DNA of 64,000 nt from Oscillospiraceae bacterium (lineage in GTDB: Bacteria > Bacillota > Clostridia > Oscillospirales > CAG-272), in NCBI GenBank assembly GCA_015063845.1, contig SVTJ01000001.1:289260-353259 (forward strand). Direction: 5' to 3'. This document shows, piece by piece, positions 5,257 to 23,599 of the stretch. A program made the position numbers and the translations under genes. Position 1 is the stretch's first letter. Each line of letters opens with the position of its first letter. The notes below the pieces were generated by a model. The model ran no database searches. It saw only the letters and a list, made by a program, of their open reading frames with translations, and had not been told where the DNA came from.

Positions 5257-5900
5257 TTGGTCATCTTCTCCTGCTTGACCTTGTGGTCGAGCACGTTTCT
5301 TGATGCAAGCTCCATCTTCACGTCGTCAAGCGTGATACCCATCTCAATCATAAGCACCATTACGTGATACACAAGGTCTGCTATCTCGTATATAGTCTCA
5401 GCCTTGTCGTTTGCCTTACCTGCGATTATTACCTCTGTGCTCTCCTCGCCGACCTTTTTGAGTATCTTATCAATGCCCTTTTCAAAAAGATACGTTGTAT
5501 AAGAGCCTTCCTTCTTATCTGTCTTTCTGCCCTCGATTATCTTCATAAGAGCTTCAAGTGAGAACTCCTCGCTCTCTCCCTTGTATACTACGTCATTGAA
5601 GCAGCTGTCTGTACCCGTATGGCAAGCGGGACCGTCCTTGTATACAGTCACGGTAAGAGCGTCCTTATCGCAATCGGTGACGATAGAGACGATGTGCTGC
5701 TTGTTGCCCGAAGTCTCGCCCTTTCTCCAAAGGCACTTGCGTGAACGCGACCAGAAGCACGTAGTTCCCTCCGCCATACTTATTTCAAGACTTTCCTTGT
5801 TCATATAAGCAACCGTGAGTACCTTCTTAGAAAGTGCATCCACAACTACTGCGGGGATAAGTCCGTTTTCATCAAATTTAAGTTCGTTAATTCCAATCAT
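5253..5900 (-). CDS. hisIE: Bifunctional phosphoribosyl-AMP cyclohydrolase / phosphoribosyl-ATP pyrophosphatase
   Basis: HisI motif ([21 protein letters not shown]) plus HisE C-terminus ([15 protein letters not shown]). Confidence 0.95.
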
Positions 5901-5914
5901 TTTTTACCTCTATA

Positions 5915-6673
5915 TTACAGTCTTACGTTGATATTGTTCTCTGCCAAGGTGCGCTTAAGGTCCTTTATATCCACCTCTCCAAAATGGAAGATAGATGCCG
6001 CAAGTCCCGCGTCTACCTTAGGCAAGCTGTTAAACAATGTTATGAAATCCTCAATGCAGCCCGCTCCGCCTGATGCTATCACGGGTACTTTTACGGCATT
6101 ACATACCGCGTCAAGCATTTCAAGGTCGAAGCCCTGCTTTACTCCGTCAGTATCAATGCTGTTGACTACTATCTCTCCCGCACCGCGTTCTACGCACTGC
6201 TTTATCCACGATATAGCCTCCATTCCCGTGTTTTCTCTGCCGCCCTTAGCAAACACACGGAAAACTCCGTCAACTCGCTTCACGTCGACCGAAAGCACCA
6301 CGCACTGGTCTCCGTACTTCTTAGCCGCCTCTTCAACAAGCGCGGGATTTCTTATAGCTCCCGAGTTTACGCTGACCTTATCAGCTCCACATTTAAGTAC
6401 TCTGTCAAAATCGTCAATGGTATTGATGCCGCCGCCAACCGTGAGCGGTATGAACACCTTGCTTGCCGTTTCCTTAAGAATATCAGTAAACAGCGCTCTG
6501 CCCTCAAAAGATGCGGTTATATCATAGAATACGAGCTCGTCAGCACCGCATTCGCTATAATACTCAGCGAGTGTTACGGGAGACGATACGTCTGCAAGTC
6601 CCAAAAAGTTTACACCCTTTACTACTCTGCCGTTCTTTACGTCAAGACAAGGAATAATACGCTTTGTTATCAT
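5915..6673 (-). CDS. hisF: Imidazole glycerol phosphate synthase cyclase subunit
   Basis: MITKRIIPCLDVKNGRVVKGVNF...; start set at ATG 6673 with RBS. Confidence 0.96.
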   Translation of the reverse strand: MITKRIIPCLDVKNGRVVKGVNFLGLADVSSPVTLAEYYSECGADELVFYDITASFEGRALFTDILKETASKVFIPLTVGGGINTIDDFDRVLKCGADKVSVNSGAIRNPALVEEAAKKYGDQCVVLSVDVKRVDGVFRVFAKGGRENTGMEAISWIKQCVERGAGEIVVNSIDTDGVKQGFDLEMLDAVCNAVKVPVIASGGAGCIEDFITLFNSLPKVDAGLAASIFHFGEVDIKDLKRTLAENNINVRL

Positions 6674-7398
6674 ATTTCCTCCATTATGTTTGCAAGAGTG
6701 ATACATTTTGAAAGCTCGAGTGCGCCTGTATAGAGTGCTTTTCCAACGATCGCGCCGAATATATCCATATTAGCAAGTACTACTATGTCTTCCTCAGAGG
6801 AGACACCGCCCGAAGCTATGATGTTCATTTCAAAATTATCATAAAGCTCTCTATAAAGATCTCTATTAGTTCCCGACATCATTCCGTCCTTGGAGATATC
6901 GGTGCAAATAATCGTTTTAACACCGAGCTCTTCAAGCTTTTGACAAAAATCAAAGCAAGAGAGAGCCGAGGTCTCAAGCCAGCCCTTTATCGCAACGTAA
7001 CCGTCCTTTATGTCTACACCGACAACTATCTTCTCTCCGTAAGCATTAACTGCAGCAGAAAGAAATTCGGGGTCTGTAACAGCTGCCGTGCCTATAATTA
7101 CACGGTCAACACCTATATCTATATAGCTCTTTACACGGTCAAGCGTACGTATTCCGCCACCCACCTCGACTGATAACGAGGTGTTCTCGGTTATTCTCTT
7201 TATCGTATCAAAATTTGCGCAAGTTCCGTCCTTAGCACCGTCAAGGTCGACCACGTGTAAATATTTTGCTCCTGCCAACTCAAATTCCTTGGCAACAGCC
7301 ACAGGGTCGTCATTGTAGACAGTGACCTTATCGTAGTCACCCTTGACAAGACGAACCGCTTTTCCGCCTATCAAATCAATCGCGGGTATAATGTTCAT
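6670..7398 (-). CDS. hisA: ProFAR isomerase
   Basis: MNIIPAIDLIGGKAVRLVKGDYDKVTVY... TIM barrel. Confidence 0.96.
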   Translation of the reverse strand: MNIIPAIDLIGGKAVRLVKGDYDKVTVYNDDPVAVAKEFELAGAKYLHVVDLDGAKDGTCANFDTIKRITENTSLSVEVGGGIRTLDRVKSYIDIGVDRVIIGTAAVTDPEFLSAAVNAYGEKIVVGVDIKDGYVAIKGWLETSALSCFDFCQKLEELGVKTIICTDISKDGMMSGTNRDLYRELYDNFEMNIIASGGVSSEEDIVVLANMDIFGAIVGKALYTGALELSKCITLANIMEEI

Positions 7399-21234: not shown

Positions 21235-21263
21235 ATTATATCATATCGTACCGTTTTCGTCAA
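21235..21263 (-). promoter_or_regulatory. pyr operon promoter
   Basis: Minus strand TTGACG (21263-21258), 17 bp, TATAAT (21240-21235); short leader before pyrC. Confidence 0.75.
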
Positions 21264-21748
21264 GCATCTTTCGAGAATAATCGACGAAAAATTCTCTTGA
21301 TCTTCGAAGCAGCGCGTCTTGGAAAAAAAGCTATCCATCTGATAGGCTTTTTTGTCCACAATAATACATAAAGTCTATATCCCACACCGTCAAGGTCAAT
21401 GTCTTTATCCTTGCGGCAGACCTCGCTGACACGCGCTATTATCTGCTCGGGAGCTATACCTTTTTCGAGTACGAGCTGGTTGTCTCCGCACATCGTATAA
21501 GTGCCATCTGCCTCGATCTTCATCACTCTATGCAGCACAAAATGACCGTCTTTACGGCGGTAAAATGCGATATCGTGTTTTTTTGCGGGAATATCCGCGT
21601 TTCGCGTAAGCACGACCGAATCACGTCCCTGCACAAGCAACGGGAGCATACTCACACCCGTTGGGTATATGCGAAAGCTTGCACCGCTTGCGAGCACCTC
21701 TTCGATAGCGTCTATCGCGTCCGCAAGGCAAAAATCGTTATTATTCAA
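21260..21748 (-). CDS. S24/S26-like signal peptidase, ER/SipW-type catalytic pattern
   Basis: GVSMLPLLVQGRD (Ser box), HDIAFYRRKDGHFVLHRVM (His at the general-base position), YTMCGDNQL (Asp box); basic amphipathic C-terminus. Confidence 0.75.
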   Translation of the reverse strand: MNNNDFCLADAIDAIEEVLASGASFRIYPTGVSMLPLLVQGRDSVVLTRNADIPAKKHDIAFYRRKDGHFVLHRVMKIEADGTYTMCGDNQLVLEKGIAPEQIIARVSEVCRKDKDIDLDGVGYRLYVLLWTKKPIRWIAFFPRRAASKIKRIFRRLFSKDA

Positions 21749-22007
21749 GAATACCTGCTCCTTTTAGCGTATCTATCAAAGTATCAACGTCATTTTCAAG
21801 CGTAGTCTTATCAACTCCGTTATATTCCGTCGCAAGCGCCGCCACTATCTCGTCTCGCTCACTTCCCTTTGCGAGCATATCCCAGATAAATCTTGCGCTG
21901 TCGTTAAGCTTTATGATACCGTTGAATATTTTACTAGCATCTCCAAGCGCCATGACCACGTGTTGTCCCGCGATCTCCCTAACAACAAATCCGTTTTTTA
22001 TCTTCAT
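21741..22007 (-). CDS. PqqD-family protein (RiPP recognition element)
   Basis: 88 aa; IIKLNDSARFIWDML...ALATEYNGVDKTTLENDVDTLIDTLKGAGIL matches the PqqD pattern. Confidence 0.85.
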   Translation of the reverse strand: MKIKNGFVVREIAGQHVVMALGDASKIFNGIIKLNDSARFIWDMLAKGSERDEIVAALATEYNGVDKTTLENDVDTLIDTLKGAGILE

Positions 22008-22017
22008 ATAAAACCTC

Positions 22018-22722
22018 TTATCTCTTCATTCCGTCGTATGCGACCTGTGCCGCTTGCTCATCTGGTCTGCATTCAAGCAAGTAACACGGCACTTCAAGCA
22101 ACGTCTTTTCGAGCAACGGTGTCATCGCGTCCACCGTCTGCATATCCTCAGGGGTAAGTATCTGATGAAATATCCTCAAAAGTGCGTCACCCGCATCTAT
22201 CCTTCTTATCGCGTTTGTCTCTGCCCTTTCCAAAAAGCAGAGAGCGTGCAGCGGAGCTTTTATATTATTCTGCCAGCACTCTTTTCCGCACCAAGGTGTT
22301 CCGTAAGCATAAAGTACGCCGTCAACGCATCTGATTATAGGCTTGTCCCCATTTACTACTCTAACGCCGTCACCGAATACTTTTTTCCAAAGACCTATAT
22401 GCGTTGATTTTCCCGTTCCGCTCTTTGCTGAGAACGCATAGCCCTTTCCCTCGTATTCTATGACCGCGCTGTGCAAAAAATATGCGTCAAATCTCAGTGG
22501 CAGCTGCTTGCATATCTCTTTATATATGCAGATGCTTTCCGCATACCCCGGGGTTATCGGGATCCTTGAGGAATTCACCTGCCCGTCAAGCATCTCCCAA
22601 CTTATCTCGACTGTAAGCTGAGCCTCGGTCTCCTCGACAATATAGTCCTTGCAAAGTGCCCGAACGTATGTATATTTATTTTTTATGCAGATATCAATAT
22701 CTGCCATACGAATATAAAACAT
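22018..22722 (-). CDS. HPr kinase-like P-loop protein (HprK-related kinase of PqqD-associated clusters)
   Basis: HSAVIEYEGKGYAFSAKSGTGKSTHIGLW P-loop, VNGDKPIIR, GTPWCGKE. Confidence 0.8.
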   Translation of the reverse strand: MFYIRMADIDICIKNKYTYVRALCKDYIVEETEAQLTVEISWEMLDGQVNSSRIPITPGYAESICIYKEICKQLPLRFDAYFLHSAVIEYEGKGYAFSAKSGTGKSTHIGLWKKVFGDGVRVVNGDKPIIRCVDGVLYAYGTPWCGKECWQNNIKAPLHALCFLERAETNAIRRIDAGDALLRIFHQILTPEDMQTVDAMTPLLEKTLLEVPCYLLECRPDEQAAQVAYDGMKR

Positions 22723-22750
22723 AGTCCCTCCGCAAGATATTTCTCTTTAT

Positions 22751-22779
22751 ATTCTAACATATAATCCCGATTTTTGCAA
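22751..22779 (-). promoter_or_regulatory. Promoter of the HprK-like/PqqD/S26 cassette
   Basis: Minus strand TTGCAA (22779-22774), 17 bp, TAGAAT (22756-22751). Confidence 0.6.
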
Positions 22780-22839: not shown

Positions 22840-23496
22840 TTATTGAAACTTCTCGATATTGTCGCGAACGTATCTCATCATTTTAGACTGCAAATACGCC
22901 TTATTGCTGATAAGATAGTCTCTTACGTACTTAACCTGGAAAGGCTGAACAGCCTTCATCATATTAAGATTGTTGGCGATCTCCTCTTCACCGTTCATCT
23001 TAAGAGCGACGCAAATAAAGCCAACGGTCGCGGGAGAAGCGAGCTCGAAGCATTTCCAACCGCTCTCCTGGTCCATCTGAGCGAGGTCGATAAGAAGCTT
23101 GTACGCTACTATCGGCTTGAACTCATCTGCCATATCAAGATTTACATCATCAAGAATACCGTCAGTCCAAAGCTTACCCTCGGATGCCGCATACTTTGAA
23201 AAATAGCGATTCATACGAGCATTTACCATCTGCGCGTTGAGCGACTGTACGGATACGTTTCTCTTTGCCTTCGGATCATAAAGGAAATAGTTCGGCGTCA
23301 CACTACCCGATATATACAGCATATATGCGAGCTCGCCCGCAAGACCAAGGCTGAGGATCGCAACGACAATTATCATTATTTTTGTGAACAAATGCTCTGC
23401 GTCGTATACAAATCCAACGATCAGCAAAACAACTGCCAAGACCGCGAAAAAGATCGCAGCTATCGTCAATATAAGGTTTAAGTTTTTCTGGCTCAT
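22840..23496 (-). CDS. Membrane-anchored protein of unknown function (two N-terminal TM helices)
   Basis: Two hydrophobic helices then soluble domain; own promoter and terminator; start at ATG 23496 behind RBS. Confidence 0.7.
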   Translation of the reverse strand: MSQKNLNLILTIAAIFFAVLAVVLLIVGFVYDAEHLFTKIMIIVVAILSLGLAGELAYMLYISGSVTPNYFLYDPKAKRNVSVQSLNAQMVNARMNRYFSKYAASEGKLWTDGILDDVNLDMADEFKPIVAYKLLIDLAQMDQESGWKCFELASPATVGFICVALKMNGEEEIANNLNMMKAVQPFQVKYVRDYLISNKAYLQSKMMRYVRDNIEKFQ

Positions 23497-23599
23497 CTGC
23501 AAACACCTCATCATAAGTAATTACTTATATTATTATATCATATCAAGCAACCGTTGTCAATTATTTTGAGCAAAATATGTAGCGCATTTTAAAACAGAA

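Follow-up and report, generated by a model that had tools for sequence, protein, structure and literature searches.

A kinase, PqqD and S26 peptidase cassette from an Oscillospiraceae genome as the probable core of a trans-acting RiPP maturation system of LPP type

Three genes encoding an HprK/PEPCK-fold kinase, a discrete RRE of the PqqD family and an S26 peptidase form a tight minus-strand cassette between positions 21260 and 22722 of the window, the 64,000 nucleotide stretch of an Oscillospiraceae genome analysed here. This triplet very probably constitutes the core of a RiPP maturation system acting in trans, of the type described in May 2026 as linear polyphosphorylated peptides (LPPs; Popov et al. 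2026, PMC13381572). In the main text of that study, LPP systems are defined by a kinase, an RRE, a SipW-like peptidase, an NTP transferase and an MsbA-like exporter, with the gene order lppA-K-B-S-D-N; LppK phosphorylates Ser3, and LppS cuts the leader with the help of LppB, which is bound by the YxxP motif of precursors conforming to YxxPxVLxHQxIxFETxxS. The clusters presented there are from Bacilli, have one to three precursors within or near the cluster, and are often found by capsule loci. A sequence-only reading of the window had regarded the cassette as orphan and undescribed, a view made outdated by this publication of the same gene set in the same order. The cassette is most likely an LPP core, in a distinct branch of Clostridia with trans-encoded precursors.

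The gene for the LppK-like kinase (22018..22722, minus strand, 234 aa) is separated by a 10 nt gap from that for the LppB-like RRE (21741..22007, minus strand, 88 aa), which overlaps by 8 nt the TTG-initiated gene for the LppS-like peptidase of SipW/Sec11 type (21260..21748, minus strand, 162 aa), and all three have plausible ribosome-binding sites. The description of these genes as a tight cassette is thus borne out by their spacing and by their recurrence, which is far beyond chance because it extends to many unrelated genomic contexts. The further claim that the cassette has its own promoter is weak, as the region contains 6 promoter-like matches against 6.0 expected in shuffles. A 224 aa membrane-anchored protein, encoded on the same strand directly upstream of the kinase (22840-23514), is possibly an accessory gene product; its place before the kinase is kept in around 11 related loci, sometimes 3 nt away, and in the window a 12/12 promoter-like site lies ahead of its gene (23560-23532). 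No exporter, NTP transferase or precursor gene adjoins the window cassette, and at this locus there is no cyclase gene next to it; two NTP_transf_5 genes are found elsewhere in the genome, away from the cassette.

The P-loop of the kinase (AKSGTGKST) is intact, and residues H84, G104, K105, N124, D126, K127 and G146 are invariant in its family. The protein has no match in Pfam, Hpr_kinase_C included, and its weak matches to ScmC and HprK-related models all fall far below the curated cut-offs, while its AlphaFold model (pLDDT 97) matches the HprK/P and PEPCK folds (Foldseek E 1e-5 for HprK/P). As a canonical HprK is encoded elsewhere in the same genome (C3:14795, E 3.7e-71), identification of the window protein as an ordinary HPr kinase was rejected, and the earlier suggestion that it is instead a peptide-modifying enzyme appears to be right.

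The PqqD protein matches the Pfam PqqD family (E 1e-18), and the profile of its family finds the lasso B1 protein TbiB1 (E 6e-12, 49 bits) above LppB (PDB 9x8z; E 4.6e-7, 33 bits). Residues N33 and D70 of LppB have conserved counterparts in N35 and D73; these similarities argue for the proposed role as a leader-binding RRE. A second PqqD-like protein in the same genome (locus L210, C7, 8304-8666) lies beside an oligopeptide-transporter-like gene and was dropped as a partner of the cassette on account of that neighbour. In the S26 protein, G31, S33, M34, P36, H73, R74, G88 and D89 are invariant among 31 homologues, upholding the predicted Ser-His-Asp pattern of SipW/Sec11 type (Ser33, His73 and Asp89); the counterpart of the catalytic Asp93 of LppS is either Asp89 or Glu95. 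Profile matches are to Sec11 (Sec11A, E 2e-4) and archaeal SPase, and the AlphaFold model (pLDDT 92.5) resembles signal peptidase and LexA folds with consistent but weak Foldseek E-values. The protein has no N-terminal membrane helix, and the basic amphipathic C-terminal helix noted previously is indeed present and is widespread among family members. Homology with LppS makes its assignment as the leader peptidase probably correct.

Of 118 genomes from the window's family, 76 encode the kinase. Among 134 distinct loci, chosen by kinase similarity alone with duplicates removed, the three genes co-occur in 77, and in 67 they are directly consecutive in the order kinase-PqqD-S26, a recurrence that the sequence-only reading had proposed looking for; the rest consist of kinase and PqqD only (18), kinase and S26 (4) or kinase alone (35), with small errors to be expected in single loci given that ORFs were called by simple rules. 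The contexts of the triplet loci vary widely, and two further genomes from the genus have the triplet behind the same upstream gene as in the window (L031, L032). A joint function is indicated by fusions of the kinase to PqqD (L077, L160, L220), of S26 to the NTP transferase (L081) and of S26 to the ABC protein (L153, L240). Fuller loci continue downstream with genes for an ABC exporter and for a protein of the NTP_transf_5 family (Pfam E 3e-49), and complete clusters run LEADER-KIN-PqqD-S26-ABC-NTP, two of them in single-contig genomes (L232, L233); as these fuller versions follow the LPP gene order, the window genes can be considered LppK-LppB-LppS-like. A radical SAM/SPASM gene lies downstream in Faecalibacterium, Blautia and others, among them the culturable Faecalibacterium gallinarum JCM 17207 (L113). 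In three loci (L078, L080, L086) the cassette is preceded by a secreted protein of around 3000 aa, and PqqD and S26 are separated by a Pro/Thr-rich or SLH-like protein with the conserved C-terminal tail YEEYxxx...GNIDLGxLxGG; this tail (family c48) was rejected as a candidate substrate, being restricted to these loci.

Small ORFs with good Shine-Dalgarno sites between the S26 and radical SAM genes have a common leader. Once this motif had been recognised there, it was searched for genome-wide, as the earlier reading had suggested, and the same leader was found in ABC/NTP loci and far from any cassette. Its consensus is roughly (Y/F)xxPx(I/A)E(V/I)(I/V)xFxxxD(V/I)(I/V)TxS, with the Asp present in 42 of 42 aligned leaders, the Ser in 41 and the initial Tyr/Phe in 40. 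The tails are short (median 18 aa) and, in 44 of 49 precursors, net acidic; since Ser, Thr and Tyr are all missing beyond the motif in seven of the 49, the motif Ser itself is favoured as the site of phosphorylation. No NCBIfam or Pfam model covers the precursor peptides tested.

The distribution of the leader follows that of the kinase. Among the 118 family genomes, 52 have both, 24 the kinase only, 42 neither and none a small-ORF leader without the kinase (Fisher p 3.5e-15, or 2e-14 minus the genomes that seeded the alignment), these and the following p-values overstating independence because the genomes are related and mostly MAGs. Leader matches at E <= 0.1 occur in 57 of the 118, five of which lack the kinase; the matches in these five all lie in ORFs of 165-649 aa and were dropped after the table had been seen, the association giving p 1.5e-9 when they are retained. 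In all five genera whose sampled genomes are discordant for the kinase, the leader tracks it. A class-wide sample of 291 genomes, in which only the window's own genome represents its family, contains 34 with the leader, 33 of which have a short kinase: of 45 genomes carrying the short kinase 33 have the leader, against none of 41 with only the longer (~300 aa) subfamily and one of 205 with no kinase (p 2.6e-32), where the division into short and long forms was drawn after the kinase match coordinates had been seen. One exceptional genome (G377; L241, L242) has precursors behind secreted proteins and no detectable LPP-type kinase.

The sequence-only reading had also raised the possibility of a substrate encoded in trans, which is supported at the level of sequence by a candidate precursor on another contig of the same genome. 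This 44 aa ORF, MNNKNYQTPQAEFVKFSTEDIMSLSINAINETVLEDNIDISDLL (C14:40710-40844, minus strand; motif Ser at S25), is the single match in the genome, and its E of 0.002, obtained from an alignment built without it, is modest; a later E of 1.2e-8 is circular, because the alignment by then included the ORF. An AAGGAG site precedes the ORF, which begins 11 nt beyond the gene for a 1043 aa protein bearing a metallo-beta-lactamase domain and a predicted signal region; downstream of the ORF come a terminator-like hairpin and a T-run. Candidates in trans are likewise found in the two other genomes of the genus. Conventional RiPP systems elsewhere in the genome had been named as a potential explanation for the cassette; the only one seen is SCIFF (L213, C12), with its peptide at 6868-7011 and its radical SAM maturase at 5420-6796, and it was rejected because it has this maturase of its own. 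A lasso cluster was similarly rejected, no B2 peptidase being found above cut-off in the genome; sub-cut-off matches lie inside ORFs of 801 and 1472 aa.

We infer the binding, phosphorylation and cleavage steps from the homologous, experimentally studied LPP system. The PqqD protein would bind the YxxP-type leader of small precursors such as the C14 peptide, and the kinase would phosphorylate, possibly repeatedly, the near-invariant Ser of D[VI][IV]TxS (S25 in the C14 peptide). The S26 peptidase would then cleave off the leader beside this motif, at a site made ambiguous by the difference between this leader and HQxIxFETxxS: cleavage after FxT or after D[VI][IV] would leave the conserved Ser in the product in either case. 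In the C14 peptide the two candidate sites follow T18 and M22. The expected product is a short, usually acidic, linear phosphopeptide, which in fuller clusters may be exported by the ABC exporter and decorated by the NTP transferase.

Other explanations have been weighed against this LPP-type system. The cassette might serve another substrate in this organism, the leader-bearing small ORFs being regulatory or structural proteins linked to it by co-occurrence only, as would fit the single, modest precursor match in its genome and short, acidic tails unlike typical antimicrobial cores; the leaders, however, bear a YxxP-type RRE-binding motif, lie directly before the kinase in full clusters and track it across genomes, making such an account improbable. 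That the window holds what is left of a complete LPP cluster, reduced and possibly decaying and yielding no finished product, is suggested by the lack of exporter, NTP transferase and precursor beside it, yet sits poorly with intact catalytic residues, the same arrangement behind the same upstream gene in two genomes of the genus and trans precursor candidates in all three, and we consider it very improbable. Least probable is an HPr(Ser) kinase of the ordinary kind, or a moonlighting one, with incidental neighbours: the fold superfamily shared with HprK/P is set against the canonical HprK elsewhere in the genome, the missing Hpr_kinase_C match, and the strong recurrent linkage and fusions of the kinase with PqqD.

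The Clostridia loci match the LPP systems in the main text of PMC13381572 in combining a kinase, a discrete RRE, a SipW-like peptidase, an exporter, an NTP transferase and a precursor in identical order, and their precursors likewise have a YxxP-type leader followed by a conserved Ser. They differ in that the leader ends in D[VI][IV]TxS without the Bacilli consensus HQxIxFETxxS, in that most precursors are trans-encoded, with as many as 19 in one genome (G333), and usually lie behind large secreted proteins, and in including a radical SAM branch with Cys-containing cores. That main text makes no mention of Clostridia, secreted proteins or radical SAM genes, although its supplements may list Clostridia members; a Clostridia branch with its own precursor motif and mostly trans-encoded precursors appears to be unreported. 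Phosphorylated lasso peptides of the paeninodin and pseudomycoidin type share the HprK-like kinase, discrete RRE, NTP transferase, exporter and YxxP/WxxP leader recognition (PMC8498205, PMC7533575), whereas the cassette has an S26 peptidase, no B2 protein over cut-off and no adjoining cyclase. SynChlorMet (ScmC/ScmD/ScmE) and HPr-rel-A (NCBIfam) also pair an HprK-like protein with PqqD, and the radical SAM branch resembles ScmE, but every match is far below curated cut-offs.

As a rule, a precursor comes directly after the gene of a large secreted protein. Forty-one of the 56 distinct peptides have a co-directional ORF of at least 150 aa no more than 120 nt ahead of them. Among the complete upstream ORFs, 23 of 35 score positive for a signal peptide under a simple hydrophobicity rule, a crude test made without a background control; the ORFs without one are mostly S26 or radical SAM genes preceding peptides. 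Domains in the upstream proteins include adhesin-like, Ig, InlB-repeat and cohesin types. A C-terminal domain, SPMTYx...NVAKALYxYYxAAxxYF, is common to several of the upstream secreted proteins (L155, L159, L177, L188, L221 and others), its seeds being precursor neighbours and hence a biased sample. A tentative proposal is that numerous scattered peptides are matured by a single cassette, that each of them shares a transcript with its own large secreted protein, and that the two act together extracellularly.

Around 4,000 discrete RREs of lasso type were left by RRE-Finder with no lasso enzymes to go with them, some suggested to belong to uncharacterised RiPP classes (PMC7470986), and the Clostridia LPP-type family plausibly explains part of these. 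The defined motif, multi-precursor genomes and secreted-protein link provide testable substrates for the role of LPPs in common gut bacteria. If the tentative proposal of co-transcription and joint action is true, peptide and secreted protein would share a role, for instance with the peptide as a ligand, anchor or assembly factor, and LPPs would gain a function in gut Clostridia, in the biology of the cell surface.
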